From Candidatus Altarchaeota archaeon (GTDB lineage: Archaea > Altiarchaeota > Altiarchaeia > JAFGQM01), in the NCBI GenBank assembly GCA_016935655.1, contig JAFGQM010000010.1, forward strand, positions 1 to 8,427: a stretch of DNA of 8,427 nt, written 5' to 3'. The position numbers were made by a program, and so were the translations under genes. Shown piece by piece: positions 1-8,427 of this stretch. Within the stretch, counting starts at the first letter, position 1. Each line of letters opens with the position of its first letter. Below the pieces are notes generated by a model that was given only the letters and a program-made list of their open reading frames with translations, was not told the DNA's origin and ran no database searches.

Positions 1-894
1 ATATTCTATTCGCAGGTGACTGGTGTGGCTACGATAACTGCCACCAACGGGTGCAACGAGGGAAGCACTGAAGTCAATGTCTATGCGTGTACAGGCGACC
101 AGTTGGATGTAACCGCCTTCCCGCTTGAGATACCGGCGGACGGCGTGAGCACCTCCACAATCGTCGGGCAATTGGAGGACGCCGTAGGTAACCCGGTTTC
201 CCAGGCAGGCCTTCCAGTGGAGTGCACGACCGACAAGGGCGAGTTCCCGAACGGCATGCAGACAGTCCTGGTGACGACCAACATGTGGGGCACTGCCACG
301 GCACTGTTGACGTCTACCACGGAAGCAGGTGTCGCGACGGTCGTTTGCCATGCAGGCACTCTATCAGACTCGGTACAGGTGAAGTTCATAGCAGGGACCT
401 TTGAGGACAAGATAGAGCTGAAGCAGCACACATGGAAGCTGATTTCGGTTCCGAAGAAGCTGGATCCGGCAGGGTTCAACGACTTGTTCGAGGCCGATGA
501 CGTCTTGCTGAACTACACGGCTGCTGCGGGCATATGGCAACTGATAAGTGCAGTTATGCCGGCAGATATAAAGCCGTTATATGGCTATTGGGCATATAGC
601 ATAAATGACGAGACTATCCTGCTGGCATATGACCAGGGCCAGATAGTCCCACCGCAGCTTGATTTGACTGCTGGATGGAACTTGATAGGACACGGCTCTA
701 GGACGTCAATGCCAGTGGAGGATGCCCTGTTCTCTATAGACAGCAAGTACGCCTTCGTTCTGAGGTACACGGGGGGCTCCTGGGAGATCTACAGTGCTAG
801 CGGATTCCCGCAGCAGTTCACGAACATGAACCCAGTGGAGGGCTACTGGATATTCATGACGCAGGACGGCACATACGCTGCACCGGGGATATAA
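1..894 (+). CDS. C-terminal part of a large secreted surface protein with Ig-like (Big_1) domain
   Basis: The frame is open from base 1, so the N-terminus lies outside the window; 297 codons are visible. Residues 5-29 look like the last strands of a preceding Ig-like domain (VTGVATITATNG). Residues 34-130 fit a bacterial Ig-like Big_1 (invasin/intimin) domain: IPADGVSTSTI, then DAVGNPV, a TTDKGEF turn and a GTATALLTSTTEAGVATV core. Residues 144-210 and 220-296 form two diverged copies of a repeat with a W-x-LI start (WKLISVP, WNLIGHG), a central LF and YT...W segment, and a GYW end (YGYWAY, EGYWIF). This repeat type is common at the C-termini of secreted archaeal and bacterial proteins. No C-terminal transmembrane helix or charged tail is visible, so anchoring must be by another route or the protein is released. 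A hairpin terminator follows directly, so this is a transcription unit separate from the downstream genes. An S-layer or adhesin role is inference. Confidence 0.85.
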   Translation: MFYSQVTGVATITATNGCNEGSTEVNVYACTGDQLDVTAFPLEIPADGVSTSTIVGQLEDAVGNPVSQAGLPVECTTDKGEFPNGMQTVLVTTNMWGTATALLTSTTEAGVATVVCHAGTLSDSVQVKFIAGTFEDKIELKQHTWKLISVPKKLDPAGFNDLFEADDVLLNYTAAAGIWQLISAVMPADIKPLYGYWAYSINDETILLAYDQGQIVPPQLDLTAGWNLIGHGSRTSMPVEDALFSIDSKYAFVLRYTGGSWEIYSASGFPQQFTNMNPVEGYWIFMTQDGTYAAPGI

Positions 895-1670: not shown

Positions 1671-1684
1671 AAAAGATTTATCGT

Positions 1685-1694
1685 GGGGGTAAGA
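1685..1694 (+). promoter_or_regulatory. Ribosome binding site deciding the start of the large surface protein
   Basis: GGGGGTAAGA sits just before the ATG at 1695. An upstream in-frame GTG at 1683 overlaps this site and would put four extra residues before the signal peptide, so 1695 is preferred. The same GGGGTAA string precedes the ATG at 963. Confidence 0.6.
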
Positions 1695-4600
1695 ATGAAA
1701 AAATATATATCGACATTTGTTGTAGTATTGTTAGCCATAGTACTGGCTGCTGATGTGATTGGTGAGGATGTGCCTATAGGAGCTGGCGTATACACGGGCT
1801 TGGTGACATTCAATGGTGTTCCTGCACCAGCGGGAACGACAATAGAAGCTTTCCTGCAGGATGATAGTGACCCTGACGTTAACGATGGTGAGACTATTGT
1901 GGGTCCTGGTGATGGTGTTTACACCCTATTGGTCCAGGGCGAGAACGACAAGGTCTTAAAATTCAAAGCCAATGGAGTTTATGCTGATCAGACCCCCATG
2001 TTCCACGGAAGTGAAGGAATTCCAACTCGGATTGAATTGGACCTATCGTTTACTAGCTCCGTTGAGACCCACACCGTATGTAACTATGATGATGACATTT
2101 GCGAGCTGGTACCGGGTTCTGGTACCGATGAGTGTTCAGCATATGACGATTGCATTCATGCCATTTGTAACTATGACACTCTGACATGCGACATCGTCGA
2201 ATCCCCCGGTGCAGACGAGTGTGCGGATTATATCCCGGATTGCGCTGAGTGTTATGATGAGGATACCCAAGCTTGCGACACTGGATTGGACGGCGTTTGT
2301 GCTGATGGTACCGAGACGTGCACAGGCGGTTCTTGGGGCAATGGCGAGTTTTGCGTCCAAGACGTCCAGGCTTCTGCCGAAGTATGTGACAACGGCCTTG
2401 ACGACGACTGTGATGGTTTGACTGACCTGGATGACGAGGACTGTGTGGGAGAGACGAAGATTTCTGTGTCCCCCCCATCCCAGAGCATAAACGTGGGCGA
2501 TACAGCCACTGTGACTATTAAGATATCCAATATACAAGCCCTTTTGGGGTACGAGCTGACAGTAAACTTTGATGATTCCCTGCTTGATGTTTCATCAAGG
2601 TCTTCAGCAGGGTTCCTAGGGGGCATGTTTGTCCCGGGCGTTTTGGATGTCAATAAGATAAAGCAGATTTCAGAGTTTTTAACTCAGCCACCTGGAGTTT
2701 CCGGTTCAGGTGATTTGTTTACAGTCACATTTACCGCCGCGGCTCCCGGAACGTCTGCGATCACGCTTTCTGGCGTATCCCTCTATGATGATGCCATGCA
2801 GTTGATGGGCGGATATGGTGTTGAAGACGGCACGATAACGGTAAACGGCGAGTGCATCAATGAGGAGACCCAGAGTTGTGACACAGGATTCTATGGTATT
2901 TGCGCCGACGGGACCCAGACTTGCGTGGACTGGTTCTGGGGATCATGCGAACAAGACAATCAGCCTTCTTTAGACGACAACTGCAACGGAGTGGACGAAA
3001 ACTGCGACGGTTCTGAGGATGAGGGTTACGTCCCCGTAAGTTGTAATACCGGCGCCCCCGGGATATGCGCTGCAGGGATGACGCAGTGTTCTCTTGGATC
3101 TATCGACTGCCCGGTTACTGTGACACCGACGGCTGAAGTCTGCGACAACGGCCTTGACGACGACTGCGACGGCCTGACCGACTCAGAGGATGATGATTGC
3201 TGGGAATGTAACCACGGTGACTCAAGGAGCTGTGACACGGGCGAGCCTGGCGTTTGCGCCGAAGGCTACCAGAACTGCATGGAAGGCTTCTGGAGTGACT
3301 GTATACAAAACGTGTTTTCATCTCCGGATGACAACTGCAACGGCCTTGACGACGACTGCGACGGAACTCCAGACGACGAATATGTTGAAACACAAACATA
3401 CTGTGGCGTCGGGGCTTGTTACGCTACCGGGATGCTGGTCTGCGCCAGTGGTTCAGAAAAGGATACCTGCACTCCGGGAGATCCAGCTGCTGACGATGCA
3501 ACATGCAACCTCCTTGACGACGACTGCGACGGAAGAGTAGACGAGGATTATGTCTCAGCATGGTGCGATTCGGGCTTCCCGGGCATCTGCGCTGATGGAA
3601 CCAGCTACTGTTCGTTTGGCTACGAGATATGCTCTGTGGATGTCGAGCCAGGTGCGTTCGAGGAGATTTGTGATAACGGCCTTGACGACGACTGCGACGG
3701 CTATACTGACATGCAGGATTCAGACTGTGGCTGCGAGACTGATGAAGACTGCGATGACGGGAATTTGTGTACAGTAGACACCTGCAACCTGGAGACTCGC
3801 GTATGCGACTATAACAACGTTGAGGACGGGGCATCCTGCTCTGACGAGCTGTTCTGCAATGGTGAGGAGACTTGCCAGGCAGGGGTCTGCGAATCGGGAG
3901 TAGTACCTTGTTTGGATTTCGTCGATTGTACTATCGACTCCTGTAATGAGGAGACTGATACTTGTGAATACACACCGGACGACTCCTACTGCGACAATGG
4001 TTTGTTCTGCGACGGGTTGGAGTACTGCGATCTATCTGTATTGGAAGGATCTGGCTGCAGGGATGGAGTTGCTCCTACATGCTTTGATGATGAGGACTGC
4101 ACCACAGATTCATGCTCCGAGGGTGTCGAGAGCTACGTTTGCGTGTTCACGCCAATAGACGAAGACGAGGACGGCTACGACATCTGCGAGGGCGATGAGA
4201 CGGATTGTGATGATGCCAATGCATCGATAAATCCGGGCGCGGCAGAGGTCTGTGACAACGGCGTCGACGACGACTGCGACGGTTTGGTAGACATGGACGA
4301 CGACGATTGTTATCATGCAGAGTGCGGTTATAATGCATCAGAGGCCTATGGTTGTTTCGTGGTAGAGGGTGCAGGAGATGACCAGTGCGAGGGCTATTAT
4401 GACTGCATACACACCGTTTGCGTATACAATGAAGGTCCCGGCGAGGGCGAGGCGGAGGCTGAGGCTGAAGCCGAGGCCGAGTTCATAATCTATGGCAGCT
4501 ATTCTTGCGAACTCGTGGAGGAGGTTGGCTCGGATGAGTGCTCTGTCGAGACTGTGGAAATAGACTGCAGGCCGGATTTGACCGGGAGTTTCACATTCTC

Positions 4601-5555
4601 CCCCGAGAACCCGACTGCGGGCGAGACCGTGACTATAATAGCAACCGTGGTCAATGAAGGGCCTATAGATGCTGTCGAGGACTTCACTGTGACCGGTACT
4701 GTTGCTAGCGATCCCACGGTTATCGGCCAGGAGACCATACCTGGGCTGGCATCCGGCTCTTTCGTGAACGTTACCTTCACATGGGTCTCAGTTGCCGGGT
4801 TACACCAACTAAGCGTCTTTGTAGACTCTGGCGACAATGTTACGGAGTCTTTGGAGAACAATAACGAGATGGTGGAGAACATAACTGTTTCCTCACCACC
4901 ACCCCCCGAGGAGAAAAAGAAATCCAGCAGACGCAGGGGTGGAGGCGGTGGTTCCAGTTTCGTTACTACCGGCGGCCTGCCGATAGAGGGCATAGAGATA
5001 CCGGAGCCGGAGCCTGTTCCTGAGCCTGTCGTGGAGGAGACTCCCGAGGTGGAAGAGCCTGTTCCTGAGCCTGTCGTGGAGACTCCGACTGAGCCGCTGA
5101 CAACACAGCCAACGCCACCAGTTCCATTAGCAGTCGCTGCAGAGGACAACAGTTGGTGGTGGATAATCGCTTTGATACTGGGCGGCCTTTTTGTCTTCTT
5201 CGTAGTATGGAGACAGAGGAGGAAGCACTACTTGGTTACAAGGGAGTTTGTCAAGGACCTGGACTCCGAAGGCTTTGAGGCATTGAGAAACCTGTCTGAA
5301 GAGGCCAGTATTTACATACTTGGCTCTGTCCCGGAGAATGCCGATTTCCTCAAAGAGGCGATGCTCAAGGACGAGGACAAGGCGAAGGCCAAGGGGATAT
5401 CCAAGAACTATGGCATCAGCGAGGAATATGCACAGGCCATCACACTGGCGAAGCTGACGAAAGCGATCCTGATAACCGACTCGGAGAAGGTCATGAAGGC
5501 CTGCGAGGAGATGGGCGTCGAGGTGCAGGGGCTGGCGGTTGCGGAAGCAGCCTAG
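1695..5555 (+). CDS. Giant type I membrane protein: cohesin-like domain within a MopE-type Cys/Asp repeat array, CARDB, TM helix, cytoplasmic domain
   Basis: 1286 aa. Signal peptide, residues 1-23. Beta-sandwich shared with the upstream gene, 32-118. Two Cys-rich units of form H-x2-C-x-Y-x4-C-x-V-x4-x-DEC, 126-183. First CDTG/CADG plus MopE-type metal-binding unit (CDNGLDDDCDGLTD), 194-250. Cohesin-like domain, about 255-384 (SINVGDTATVTI, GYELTVNFDDSLLDV, SGSGDLFTVTF, PGTSAITLSG). Five more CDTG/MopE units, 388-678. Cys-rich units of CTVDTC/CTIDSC type, 680-818. A TSP3-like Asp segment with the seventh MopE motif, 822-872. Two more H-x-(E/V)-C units, 874-958, one carrying a Glu-Ala expansion. 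CARDB domain, about 960-1066 (NPTAGETVTI, LENNNEMVENITV). Gly/Arg and Pro/Glu linker. Transmembrane helix, 1154-1172, then RQRRK and a cytoplasmic tail to 1286. The Asp clusters should bind Ca2+ or another metal and the cysteines probably form disulfides. A partner-binding scaffold or sensor role is inference. Confidence 0.9.
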   Translation: MKKYISTFVVVLLAIVLAADVIGEDVPIGAGVYTGLVTFNGVPAPAGTTIEAFLQDDSDPDVNDGETIVGPGDGVYTLLVQGENDKVLKFKANGVYADQTPMFHGSEGIPTRIELDLSFTSSVETHTVCNYDDDICELVPGSGTDECSAYDDCIHAICNYDTLTCDIVESPGADECADYIPDCAECYDEDTQACDTGLDGVCADGTETCTGGSWGNGEFCVQDVQASAEVCDNGLDDDCDGLTDLDDEDCVGETKISVSPPSQSINVGDTATVTIKISNIQALLGYELTVNFDDSLLDVSSRSSAGFLGGMFVPGVLDVNKIKQISEFLTQPPGVSGSGDLFTVTFTAAAPGTSAITLSGVSLYDDAMQLMGGYGVEDGTITVNGECINEETQSCDTGFYGICADGTQTCVDWFWGSCEQDNQPSLDDNCNGVDENCDGSEDEGYVPVSCNTGAPGICAAGMTQCSLGSIDCPVTVTPTAEVCDNGLDDDCDGLTDSEDDDCWECNHGDSRSCDTGEPGVCAEGYQNCMEGFWSDCIQNVFSSPDDNCNGLDDDCDGTPDDEYVETQTYCGVGACYATGMLVCASGSEKDTCTPGDPAADDATCNLLDDDCDGRVDEDYVSAWCDSGFPGICADGTSYCSFGYEICSVDVEPGAFEEICDNGLDDDCDGYTDMQDSDCGCETDEDCDDGNLCTVDTCNLETRVCDYNNVEDGASCSDELFCNGEETCQAGVCESGVVPCLDFVDCTIDSCNEETDTCEYTPDDSYCDNGLFCDGLEYCDLSVLEGSGCRDGVAPTCFDDEDCTTDSCSEGVESYVCVFTPIDEDEDGYDICEGDETDCDDANASINPGAAEVCDNGVDDDCDGLVDMDDDDCYHAECGYNASEAYGCFVVEGAGDDQCEGYYDCIHTVCVYNEGPGEGEAEAEAEAEAEFIIYGSYSCELVEEVGSDECSVETVEIDCRPDLTGSFTFSPENPTAGETVTIIATVVNEGPIDAVEDFTVTGTVASDPTVIGQETIPGLASGSFVNVTFTWVSVAGLHQLSVFVDSGDNVTESLENNNEMVENITVSSPPPPEEKKKSSRRRGGGGGSSFVTTGGLPIEGIEIPEPEPVPEPVVEETPEVEEPVPEPVVETPTEPLTTQPTPPVPLAVAAEDNSWWWIIALILGGLFVFFVVWRQRRKHYLVTREFVKDLDSEGFEALRNLSEEASIYILGSVPENADFLKEAMLKDEDKAKAKGISKNYGISEEYAQAITLAKLTKAILITDSEKVMKACEEMGVEVQGLAVAEAA
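2397..4282 (+). repeat. Seven-copy MopE-type Cys/Asp coding repeat
   Basis: Seven copies of the motif [CN]-x-[GL]-[LV]-D-[DE]-[DN]-C-D-G occur at residues 231, 430, 483, 548, 604, 659 and 853 of the large surface protein. At DNA level the 20-mer CTTGACGACGACTGCGACGG is identical in four copies (starts 3153, 3345, 3513, 3681), the last three spaced exactly 168 nt (56 codons) apart. Copies at 2397 and 4263 differ at two bases each; the second copy (about 2985-3009) is more diverged. Copies 2-6 belong to composite units of about 53-65 residues, most of which begin with C-[DN]-[TS]-G-x3-G-[IV]-C-A. Confidence 0.85.
4443..4481 (+). repeat. In-frame Glu-Ala microsatellite (GAG-GCN)n
   Basis: Thirteen codons from residue 917 alternate Glu with Gly and then Ala (EGEAEAEAEAEAE), built from GAG/GAA and GCN. 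They interrupt a Cys-rich unit between VCVYN and SCELVEE, where the sister unit near the N-terminus (VCNYDDDICELVPG) has only four residues. It looks like replication-slippage expansion in a surface loop. Confidence 0.8.
5010..5081 (+). repeat. 27-bp direct repeat in the Pro/Glu stalk
   Basis: A 27-bp string beginning GAGCCTGTTCCTGAGCCTGT is present at 5010-5036 and again, identical, at 5055-5081. It encodes EPVPEPVVE twice, before the transmembrane helix. It is a recent tandem duplication that lengthens the stalk. Confidence 0.85.
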
Positions 5556-6560: not shown

Positions 6561-6599
6561 GGTGGTAGTATTAATTTTTCATACTAAAAAATATTGCAT
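6561..6599. promoter_or_regulatory. Divergent promoter region of the prenyl synthase and hisH
   Basis: Thirty-nine bp separate the two start codons. ATTAATTTTT (6570-6579) lies about 25 nt before the hisH ATG, and on the other strand TTTTTTAGTAT (6581-6591) lies about 27 nt before the prenyl synthase ATG. Both fit archaeal TATA boxes for leaderless messages. A 6-bp inverted repeat, TAGTAT (6566-6571) and ATACTA (6581-6586), spans the overlap. Confidence 0.55.
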
Positions 6600-7208
6600 A
6601 TGGAAATCGGCATAATCGACTACGGGGCGGGCAACCTGAGGAGCATCAGCAATGCCCTGAGGAAGGTGGGCGGCGACGTGAAGACAGTCTCGACTGCCAG
6701 GGGTATTGAAGCCTCTGATGCACTTGTACTCCCAGGGGTCGGCAACTTCGGCGATGCGATGGGGCGACTAGAGCCTGTCAGAGGAGCTGTATTGGATAAG
6801 ATTCGGATAGGGACTCCCTTCCTAGGCCTCTGCCTGGGCCTCCAGGTGCTTCTGGAGGGCAGCAAAGAAGCTCCAGCTGTCAGGGGCCTTGACCTGCTTA
6901 AAGGCCATTGTGAGCGATTTCCGGAGCCCTCAGGAAAGATCCCCCACATGGGTTGGAATTCACTAAAGATAGAGAAAAAGACCCCTCTTTTGGGGGGCAT
7001 AGAAGACAGTGACTACTTCTACTTCGTCCACTCCTATTATGGCGATGTGCAGGACAAGGACGCGATAGCTGCATCTTGTGAGTATGGTGTCATATTCCCG
7101 GCGGTCTTATCAAAAAATAACATCTATGCCTGCCAGTTCCATCCCGAGCGCAGTGGTGAAAAGGGCCTTAGGATCCTTGAGAACTTCGTCAGTCTTGCTG
7201 GGAACTGA
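6600..7208 (+). CDS. hisH: Imidazole glycerol phosphate synthase, glutaminase subunit HisH
   Basis: A 202-aa class I glutamine amidotransferase. It would hydrolyse glutamine and pass ammonia to HisF, which makes imidazole glycerol phosphate and AICAR in histidine synthesis. It begins MEIGIIDYGAGNL, the typical HisH opening. VLPGVGNFGDAM is at 43-54; the nucleophile elbow GLCLGLQ places the catalytic Cys at 78; IPHMGWN is at 114-120; FVHSYY is at 142-147; and QFHPERSG supplies His181 and Glu183. All triad residues are present and the length is normal. The start at 6600 is chosen because an upstream in-frame TTG at 6594 would only add Met-His before the canonical N-terminus. No ribosome binding site is seen. 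No hisF or other histidine gene is in the window. A HisH-like role in nonulosonic acid synthesis is possible but not suggested by context. Its last 20 nt overlap the convergent membrane-protein gene. Confidence 0.93.
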   Translation: MEIGIIDYGAGNLRSISNALRKVGGDVKTVSTARGIEASDALVLPGVGNFGDAMGRLEPVRGAVLDKIRIGTPFLGLCLGLQVLLEGSKEAPAVRGLDLLKGHCERFPEPSGKIPHMGWNSLKIEKKTPLLGGIEDSDYFYFVHSYYGDVQDKDAIAASCEYGVIFPAVLSKNNIYACQFHPERSGEKGLRILENFVSLAGN

Positions 7209-7557
7209 ATATCCCAACAATACCTGAGAGAACCCCCAAGACCGTCCCTATGTTCCCGAATCCTCCGCCTCCCAGCATGGCAGTCGCAGCGAAGACTATG
7301 ACCATAGTACTACCCATGGGTCTTTTGCTGGGCTGCAGCATAAGCTCTGAGCCTAGGAACACCATCGCGCCCGAGATTATGCCCACGCCGCCAGCAAGTC
7401 TTGCTACCTCGTCCGCTACGGGGATTGTGAACCCCATAACACTCATCTGCCCGTCGAACATGAGCAGGAGAAGCCCGAAAATCGAAATAAGCAACCCTGC
7501 CGTCAACCCGAGCAGATAAGCGACCCTTCCCATGTCCTTCTTTACTGGTTTTACCAT
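7189..7557 (-). CDS. Four-helix membrane protein, DUF4064-like, paralogue of the neighbouring gene
   Basis: A 122-aa integral membrane protein of unknown function. Hydrophobic segments lie at about 12-34, 54-74, 81-98 and 101-117. A short amphipathic stretch (about 35-52, MSVMGFTIPVADE) falls between the first two. A GSxxM...PSKRPMGS loop comes before the third segment, and Gly-rich GGGG and GTVLGVLSGIVGI lie in the last. It aligns without gaps with the next gene product over the last 65 residues or so: G-x-x-SG, GS-x-L/M, P-[SK]-x-R-x-x-GS, GGG, IG-x-[VI]-LG. The GGI, KxPK and GGG pattern resembles DUF4064-type small membrane proteins, but this is by eye. The start has no ribosome binding site and a TATA-like box sits about 30 nt upstream, so the message is probably nearly leaderless. 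A second Met at residue 9 is a less likely start. Its 3' end overlaps hisH by 20 nt. Confidence 0.75.
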   Translation of the reverse strand: MVKPVKKDMGRVAYLLGLTAGLLISIFGLLLLMFDGQMSVMGFTIPVADEVARLAGGVGIISGAMVFLGSELMLQPSKRPMGSTMVIVFAATAMLGGGGFGNIGTVLGVLSGIVGIFSSQQD

Positions 7558-7563
7558 TTGATT

Positions 7564-7599
7564 TAGTTATAACTATAAACGGGTAGGTTTATAAAAACC
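7564..7599 (-). promoter_or_regulatory. TATA element and palindrome upstream of the first DUF4064-like gene
   Basis: On the minus strand GGTTTTTATAAACC (7586-7599) ends 28 nt before the ATG at 7557. A perfect 12-bp palindrome, TAGTTATAACTA (7564-7575), lies where transcription should start. The TATA element matches that of the paralogue (8041-8054) at 13 of 14 positions. Confidence 0.65.
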
Positions 7600-7607
7600 C
7601 ACGTATT

Positions 7608-7658
7608 GAAAAAAAAGAAAACAAGGGCTAAGCAGTTGCAGTCTTACTGACTAGCCCT
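7608..7658 (-). terminator. Hairpin plus T-rich terminator of the second DUF4064-like gene
   Basis: On the minus strand AGGGCTA (complement of 7652-7658) pairs with TAGCCCT (complement of 7624-7630). The stem spans the stop codon, and the loop holds a small CAGT/ACTG stem. TTTTCTTTTTTTTC (about 7609-7622) follows directly. It lies just upstream of the promoter of the next gene, so the two paralogues are probably separate transcripts. Confidence 0.6.
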
Positions 7659-7996
7659 AAAACGCCGGCCACTATCCCTAGGATACTACCTATAAAGAGT
7701 CCGCCGCCTGCTGTGAATATCGCTATTATGGAGAATACTAAAACTAGCACACTGCCTAAGACTCTCTGTTTCGGGTTTTTGATAAGGACACTGCCCACTA
7801 TCACTATGATCCCTGATAGCAGCCCCACTATTGCGAGGACCCAGAACATCATCCCGACCCCTGTTGCGCCTATTGCTGTAGCTGCACTGCCCAATGCGCC
7901 GAATATCACGCCGATAACCGCACCTATGAGCAGAATCAGTATACCGCCAATGAGTCCCAGTATTAATGCAACCTGGCTATAATCGCCTTCAGCCAT
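7628..7996 (-). CDS. Four-helix membrane protein, DUF4064-like, paralogue of the downstream gene
   Basis: A 122-aa membrane protein with hydrophobic segments at about 9-35, 48-72, 79-97 and 99-116, and very short ends. Key features are GLIGGIL in helix 1, the IKNPKQRVLGS loop, AGGG and IGSILGIVAGVLGL. It is colinear with the downstream paralogue from about residue 53 on. The start at 7996 is chosen because GGGGGGTGAAAAG precedes it, a good match to the GGTGA core of an archaeal ribosome binding site, and because it makes the two paralogues the same length. The in-frame ATG at 8011 (five residues longer, MGGEK) is the alternative: it is 30 nt from the TATA box, the same distance as in the paralogue. 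The pattern resembles DUF4064 proteins by eye; function is unknown. The gene has its own promoter directly after the KH-domain gene and a hairpin terminator. Confidence 0.75.
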   Translation of the reverse strand: MAEGDYSQVALILGLIGGILILLIGAVIGVIFGALGSAATAIGATGVGMMFWVLAIVGLLSGIIVIVGSVLIKNPKQRVLGSVLVLVFSIIAIFTAGGGLFIGSILGIVAGVLGLVSKTATA

Positions 7997-8003
7997 CTTT
8001 TCA

Positions 8004-8054
8004 CCCCCCATTTAGTTTTAAACTGTGAGCTAAATGGGAGGGTGTATAAAAACC
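8004..8054 (-). promoter_or_regulatory. TATA element and extended inverted repeat upstream of the second DUF4064-like gene
   Basis: GGTTTTTATACACC (minus strand, 8041-8054) is the TATA element; it begins at the last base of the KH-gene stop codon. Between it and the start is a 9-bp perfect inverted repeat, CCCATTTAG (8007-8015) and CTAAATGGG (8030-8038). With one bulged base it extends into CACC/GGTG and so reaches the ribosome binding site. The spacer holds AGTTTTAAACT, an odd palindrome related to the one at the paralogue's promoter. Confidence 0.6.
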
Positions 8055-8427
8055 TATAGGCCCAGCCTTTTTTCCTTCTGCATGCCTTCCATGAACCTGT
8101 AGACGGTCGCGTGGCGAGCCCCGCTTATCAGCATCTTCAGGGCATCCTCTACAACCCCCACATCCTCCTCGCCGCCTATAACAGAGACGGTCTTCCCATA
8201 GACGGAAATCTTGGTATTGCTGAGTGTTTCCATTATCCTCCTGGCTTTGCCGCCCTCTCCTATAACCCTGGCCTTGACCCTTTTTATGTCGTTCTCGTTG
8301 CCGTGGAACATCTCATCAAGGCTGATTACCAATAGCCCATAGTCGTCCTTTGCTAGGTTTATGGCATATTTCGGGTTGAAGCCCCTGCCTATGGCCTTGA
8401 CTATGTCCCTGCCCTTCCATAGCCCTA
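8054..8427 (-). CDS. Archaeal Dim2/Pno1-type KH-domain protein (3' part)
   Basis: The frame runs off the right edge; 123 C-terminal residues are visible, so the N-terminal KH domain is mostly missing. Residues 7-30 of the visible part (DIVKAIGRGFNP, then LAKDDYGL) match the linker after KH1 in archaeal homologues of eukaryotic Pno1/Dim2. KH2 follows with R-V-K-A-R-VIGEGGKARRIME (GEGG loop at 56-59), then ISVYGKTVSVIGG and a last helix with ALKMLISGARHATVYRFME. The family binds rRNA; the eukaryotic member acts in small-subunit assembly near the 3' end of 18S rRNA, and the archaeal protein is thought to act alike on 16S rRNA. An apparent TTG at 8332 is not a real start, because homology continues upstream to the edge. 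The stop codon touches the promoter of the following membrane-protein gene. Confidence 0.92.
   Translation of the reverse strand, partial: GLWKGRDIVKAIGRGFNPKYAINLAKDDYGLLVISLDEMFHGNENDIKRVKARVIGEGGKARRIMETLSNTKISVYGKTVSVIGGEEDVGVVEDALKMLISGARHATVYRFMEGMQKEKRLGL

Follow-up and report, generated by a model that had tools for sequence, protein, structure and literature searches.

The window, i.e. the whole stretch of 8,427 nt analysed here, carries one large ORF on the forward strand together with the genes and features collected in Table 1. Besides the GTG start, an alternative ATG at 1695 yields 1286 aa and corresponds to the database entry P0001. A hydrophobic, signal-type segment at the N-terminus and one transmembrane-type segment towards the C-terminus agree with the first-pass annotation, in which the product had been called membrane-anchored. 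In the presumed topology residues 28-1156 form the ectodomain, where disulfides would be expected. All of its 84 Cys residues are confined to the two Cys-rich blocks, and 254 Asp and Glu are found versus 21 Lys and Arg. MopE repeats (PF11617) are recognised in six stretches of the large protein with 70.3 bits (cut-off 27); metal binding by this array is putative.

Table 1. Genes and protein features in the window; residue numbers refer to the large ORF.
Feature	Position	Strand	Evidence or remark
Cut-off upstream gene, Big_1/invasin-type Ig domain	1-894	+	PF09134, PF02369
Upstream gene, 235 aa	963-1670	+	12 bases separate it from the large ORF
ORF of the large membrane-anchored surface protein	1683-5555	+	1290 aa from GTG
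Probable signal peptide, residues 5-27	1695-1763	+	Hydrophobic stretch after Lys-Lys
N-terminal domain, beta-type by reading	1764-2057	+	Common with upstream gene 963-1670
Cys-rich block including MopE-type motif copy 1; 16 Cys	2058-2444	+	Sequence, Pfam PF11617
MopE-type motif copy 1, residues 233-254	2379-2444	+	
Cohesin domain	2466-2843 (Pfam bounds); modelled as 2445-2852	+	Pfam, predicted fold, profile
Cys/Asp-rich block, 68 Cys, remaining MopE-type units	2847-4568	+	Sequence, Pfam
CARDB domain, residues 963-1063	4569-4871	+	Pfam PF07705, E 8e-17
Linker rich in Gly and Pro/Glu	4893-5150	+	Sequence
Single transmembrane-type segment, then RQRRK	5151-5216	+	Hydropathy
Presumed cytoplasmic tail with predicted PIN fold; most acidic residues lost	5211-5552	+	
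hisH	6594-7205	+	220.9 bits, cut-off 105.4
Two adjacent small membrane proteins	7189-7557, 7628-8011	-	
Universal archaeal KH protein arCOG04150, partial gene	8054-8425	-	145.7 bits, cut-off 114.2

The N-terminal domain of the large protein has no Pfam match. It resembles the corresponding domain of the gene at 963-1670 (34% identity over 74 aa, E 3e-8 in a BLASTP of this single pair), and both copies likely arose by duplication. By reading, the upstream product consists of a signal-type start, this N-terminal domain, an acidic, Pro-containing linker and a C-terminal hydrophobic segment. Both genes appear to form a single operon encoding membrane-anchored surface proteins. In the cut-off gene at 1-894 the Ig domain is followed by a C-terminal region containing a pair of WxLI-type stretches, and no dockerin is found.

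Downstream, hisH adjoins a gene for an isoprenyl diphosphate synthase, and no other histidine gene is present among the window ORFs scanned. The product of 7628-8011 matches DUF6114 and DUF4064 weakly and under the cut-off. An archaeal host had been assumed before and is borne out by the KH protein arCOG04150. For the synthase the nearest model is IdsA (347.4 bits, under the cut-off of 468). Its identity reaches 48% with matches from the Altiarchaeota phylum and 45% with those from the phylum to which a Hadarchaeum genome belongs, and in a tree of 50 rows the window sits on a long branch outside any well-supported group. With the window outside any well-supported group, the comparison with Altiarchaeota below spans a distance.

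Pfam assigns residues 262-387 (2466-2843) to the cohesin family PF00963, covering model positions 3-139 of 139. The E-value is 4.6e-9 when the whole protein is searched; the stretch alone gives 3.5e-11 (43.9 bits, cut-off 24.1). The edges proposed earlier (2448-2849) were merely a few residues wider. A profile was built from 19 of the 23 cohesin stretches found in genomes of the Altiarchaeota phylum, with the window sequence left out as well as L162:2269, L169:8627, L171 and L173. It scores the window cohesin with 60.1 bits, and the runner-up among the window frames reaches 6.8. Identity to the 19 cohesins is only 14-25%. The AlphaFold2 model is nearly all beta (mean pLDDT 90.1, pTM 0.84). It was searched using Foldseek and VIA-align 2, and the best 50 matches of each are without exception cohesin or cellulosome-scaffold entries, headed in Foldseek by the non-cellulosomal cohesin of Archaeoglobus fulgidus (PDB 2xdh). 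A best match to another Ig-like family, which would speak against the assignment, was thus not obtained in the fold search. Taken together, residues 262-387 are a real cohesin, as the first-pass annotation had read them, with a predicted cohesin jelly-roll fold, and belong to the known archaeal non-cellulosomal cohesins. Among 5.8 billion proteins the cohesin retrieves itself and one weak match, the 807 aa protein P0002 (E 5e-3), which reaches 64.3 bits with the home-made cohesin profile. In viral contigs no relative was found among 27 pattern matches.

The cohesin starts a few residues past Cys 254, the last cysteine of MopE-type motif 1, and is directly followed by the next Cys-rich unit at residue 388. 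It contains no cysteine, compared to 16 and 68 in the flanking blocks. Because the domain lies between these two points, the claim that the MopE-type array is split after copy 1 and before copy 2 is correct. The same order and spacing can be read in a locus of the Altiarchaeota phylum (L172), where the Ser-Pro of the cohesin follows the cysteine of a MopE motif nine residues on. A search with residues 186-510 yields MopE-type repeat proteins; the named organisms are mostly Myxococcota or Deltaproteobacteria. Identity is about 50% over roughly one third of the region or 28-35% over most of it. We scored the 7996 candidates sharing most words, which gave 1507 relatives at E up to 0.001. Of the best 120 of these, one is the window protein itself; the 119 others listed match neither PF00963 nor the cohesin profile, and hence a cohesin is not a usual part of MopE-type arrays.

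To place the protein among possible cohesin systems, we compared it with 29 genomes of the Altiarchaeota phylum. Cohesins occur in nine of them (23 stretches, E up to 0.001), dockerins in 12 (E up to 0.01) and MopE motifs in 15. A dockerin is present in eight of the nine cohesin genomes versus four of the 20 others (Fisher one-sided p 0.0009), a value to be taken as a guide only because the genomes share ancestry and their completeness is unknown. Moreover, 10 of the 23 cohesins have a dockerin on the same strand within 1 kb, where uniform placement would give 0.05. The dockerin lies in the same frame for five of these and in a neighbouring frame for the other five, with seven distinct dockerins in total. 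The other 13 lack a PF00404 dockerin at this distance, some of them being located near contig ends.

In two genomes a dockerin gene lies directly before the gene of a membrane-anchored protein with cohesin and MopE motifs. In L164 the dockerin gene 6746-7672 is followed by 7685-9994, and in L171 6316-7212 is followed by 7216-9927, both downstream products combining cohesin, MopE motifs and the C-terminal segment. The L164 dockerin is clear (37.4 bits), while that of L171 is weak and under the cut-off (18.8 bits in the genome search, 15.8 in hmmscan) and the L171 cohesin is barely at the cut-off (23.8 bits, 24.2 with neighbours). Both dockerin proteins also show weak cohesin matches under the cut-off (14.7 and 15.5 bits). 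L161 and L163 have a frame with cohesin and then dockerin directly before the protein with cohesin and C-terminal segment, and in L162 one extra frame lies in between. In L172 a single frame combines MopE motif, cohesin, PKD and dockerin, and the gene after it codes for a cohesin protein with C-terminal transmembrane-type segment. The L172 dockerin was first noticed by eye and then found with a home-made dockerin profile, and is not part of the 10 of 23. Cohesin and MopE share a frame in three cases (G012 contig 130, G013 contig 42 and G033 contig 28). L163 additionally holds a cluster at 6031-12898 of cohesin-dockerin, cohesin-transmembrane and several dockerin frames, one of them with disintegrin-like and MopE matches.

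Some of these assignments depend on the search. At E up to 0.01 hmmscan reports no cohesin in L166:142-4242, L171:7216-9927 and L164:7685-9994, which have 33.3, 23.8 and 28.5 bits in the genome search, and at E up to 0.1 none in L172:1039-2094 (31.6 bits in the genome search). Likewise, the dockerins of L166 (19.9), L161 (22.0) and L163:6031-7020 (21.3) stay slightly under the hmmscan cut-off of 22.9 and exceed the cut-off in the genome search. The linked anchor and dockerin genes represent candidate pairs that are testable at once.

With cohesin, transmembrane segment and no dockerin, the protein of the window fits the anchor type of these loci. It thus probably holds a secreted partner at the cell surface. 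We consider it most likely, with a probability of roughly 0.6, that the large protein is a single-pass anchor whose cohesin binds a secreted dockerin protein held at the cell envelope. The ectodomain would be a long, very acidic, Cys-rich stalk of MopE type presenting one cohesin. Its ligand would be a dockerin on a secreted protein whose gene lies at another site of this genome, and such binding would keep that protein at the envelope. The docking of a secreted partner, as suggested by the first-pass annotation, is thus made plausible solely by analogy with the linkage of cohesins and dockerins in the Altiarchaeota phylum, but not by the window itself: a profile of ten Altiarchaeota dockerins detects none in the 8.4 kb, the best frame reaching 0.5 bits. 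The L172 dockerin, which is outside the profile, scores 48.9 bits with it, whereas suspected dockerin ends in L159, L167 and L169 yield only 3.5-8.7 bits. Docking, its calcium dependence, the partner and any role of the tail are inferred.

The lack of a dockerin in the window and the single copy of the cohesin would also suit a different ligand. Glycans, other surface proteins or neighbouring cells are conceivable ligands of the module; it could also be no more than a structural spacer, any dockerin partner having been lost. The low identity to the Altiarchaeota cohesins points in the same direction, as do cohesin-type modules solved from glycoside hydrolases of C. perfringens (2vo8, 2w1n). 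The strong linkage of cohesins and dockerins in the Altiarchaeota phylum argues against it, and we regard this explanation as a serious but clearly minor possibility.

The tail following the transmembrane segment was omitted by the first-pass annotation. By predicted fold and profile similarity it is a PIN domain of VapC-like type, with an hhalign probability of 96.8% against six soluble PIN-like proteins; Pfam reports no PIN match for it. In the profile alignment the first acidic Asp is replaced by Thr, the next invariant Glu by Asn and the Glu of the GEAE type by Tyr. The fourth position is Glu, or Ser if the gap is shifted. Hence at least three of the four conserved acidic residues of PIN nucleases are lost.

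A search of 5.8 billion proteins with the tail recovered only the tail itself. A tail profile gave 42 matches in genomes of the Altiarchaeota phylum, 27 of them in open frames of more than 400 aa, and some of these frames code for Cys-rich proteins with a transmembrane segment before the tail. Twenty relatives, mostly ends of long frames, were chosen from the 42 matches for a tail profile. PIN-fold, partly degenerate tails end large surface-type proteins of the phylum in L174, L175, L176, L177, L178, L192-L194 and L196-L198. The same holds for L200-L202, L205-L209 and L213, with two PIN-fold tails in tandem in L209. In the phylum of G009 (28 of 120 genomes) tail-profile matches are restricted to open frames of at most 206 aa. 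None of the 28 genomes of the Hadarchaeum phylum gave a match with a profile of 21 tails, although such an empty answer alone shows little. In the openly licensed literature, PIN domains combined with surface proteins had no evident match among the matches listed.

Placed at the inner membrane face under surface proteins, the PIN-fold tail would put a nuclease fold to an uncommon use. One may imagine a transmembrane receptor in which docking outside is reported inside via the tail, acting as a pseudo-nuclease that binds RNA or a partner. This idea can hold together with a dockerin anchor, and the predicted fold as well as the recurrence of such tails in long frames, including Cys-rich transmembrane proteins, are consistent with it. 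It is nonetheless unlikely: three of the four acidic positions are lost with the fourth uncertain, and the tail may serve merely as an anchor or sorting element. Extending the idea to an archaeal family of single-pass receptors is more speculative. In such a family docking stalks, with a cohesin in a MopE-type array here and other Cys-rich stalks elsewhere, would be fused across the membrane to a degenerate PIN domain, coupling the capture of a dockerin-bearing protein or of a cell outside to RNA or a protein partner inside.

Two further suggestions of the first-pass annotation, a scaffold and a protein that binds itself, did not stand. The term scaffold is too strong for a protein with one PF00963 stretch; a multi-cohesin scaffoldin of cellulosomal type is rejected on this ground, and with a single cohesin the protein is rather an anchor or a receptor. 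That the cohesin binds Asp-rich repeats, either within one molecule or in a sister copy, is highly improbable. The repeats are of the Cys-bracketed MopE type, and none of the 119 other listed relatives has a cohesin. A reading of the repeats as dockerins is rejected: with E limits of 1 for the whole protein and 10 for the array no dockerin match was obtained, nor was one with the dockerin profile. In favour of self-binding, cohesin and repeats share one chain and one repeat (residues 826-831) shows a DxDxDG calcium-loop pattern.

The preferred reading, a dockerin-binding anchor, can be compared with several known systems. OlpA, OlpC and SdbA are anchoring proteins of clostridial cellulosomes with a role at the cell surface. 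Their cohesins in the PDB have the same fold, whereas the large protein has no SLH match and a single cohesin, and the window no cellulase gene. MopE-related repeat proteins share the Cys/Asp array but, in the relatives listed, not the cohesin. From PIN domains of VapC type the tail differs by its membrane tether and the replacement of most acidic residues. Cohesin-like sequences were reportedly described in Archaeoglobus in 1999; the A. fulgidus cohesin 2xdh is 21-23% identical to that of the window. A comparative-genomics paper on ANME archaea (PMC9012536) states that archaeal cohesin-dockerin bonds were verified, which speaks for docking, and describes some proteins combining a dockerin with as many as five cohesins. 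The openly licensed papers searched include none with both Altiarchaeota and cohesin, and none with both cohesin domain and MopE.

Closest in architecture are the eight anchors of the Altiarchaeota phylum (L161, L162, L163, L164, L165, L168, L171 and L172), which like the large protein combine a cohesin with a C-terminal transmembrane-type segment. Those of L164 and L171 also share the MopE repeats, yet, unlike the protein of the window, place the cohesin before the MopE motifs and additionally contain CarboxypepD_reg domains. In all eight only few, partly basic residues follow the transmembrane segment, where the large protein carries a PIN-fold tail instead. Compared with the cohesins of A. 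fulgidus and ANME archaea, it is thus the setting that is new: a single cohesin within a MopE-type stalk of a transmembrane-anchored protein, the new part being the link between a cohesin at the surface and a PIN-fold tail tethered to the membrane.
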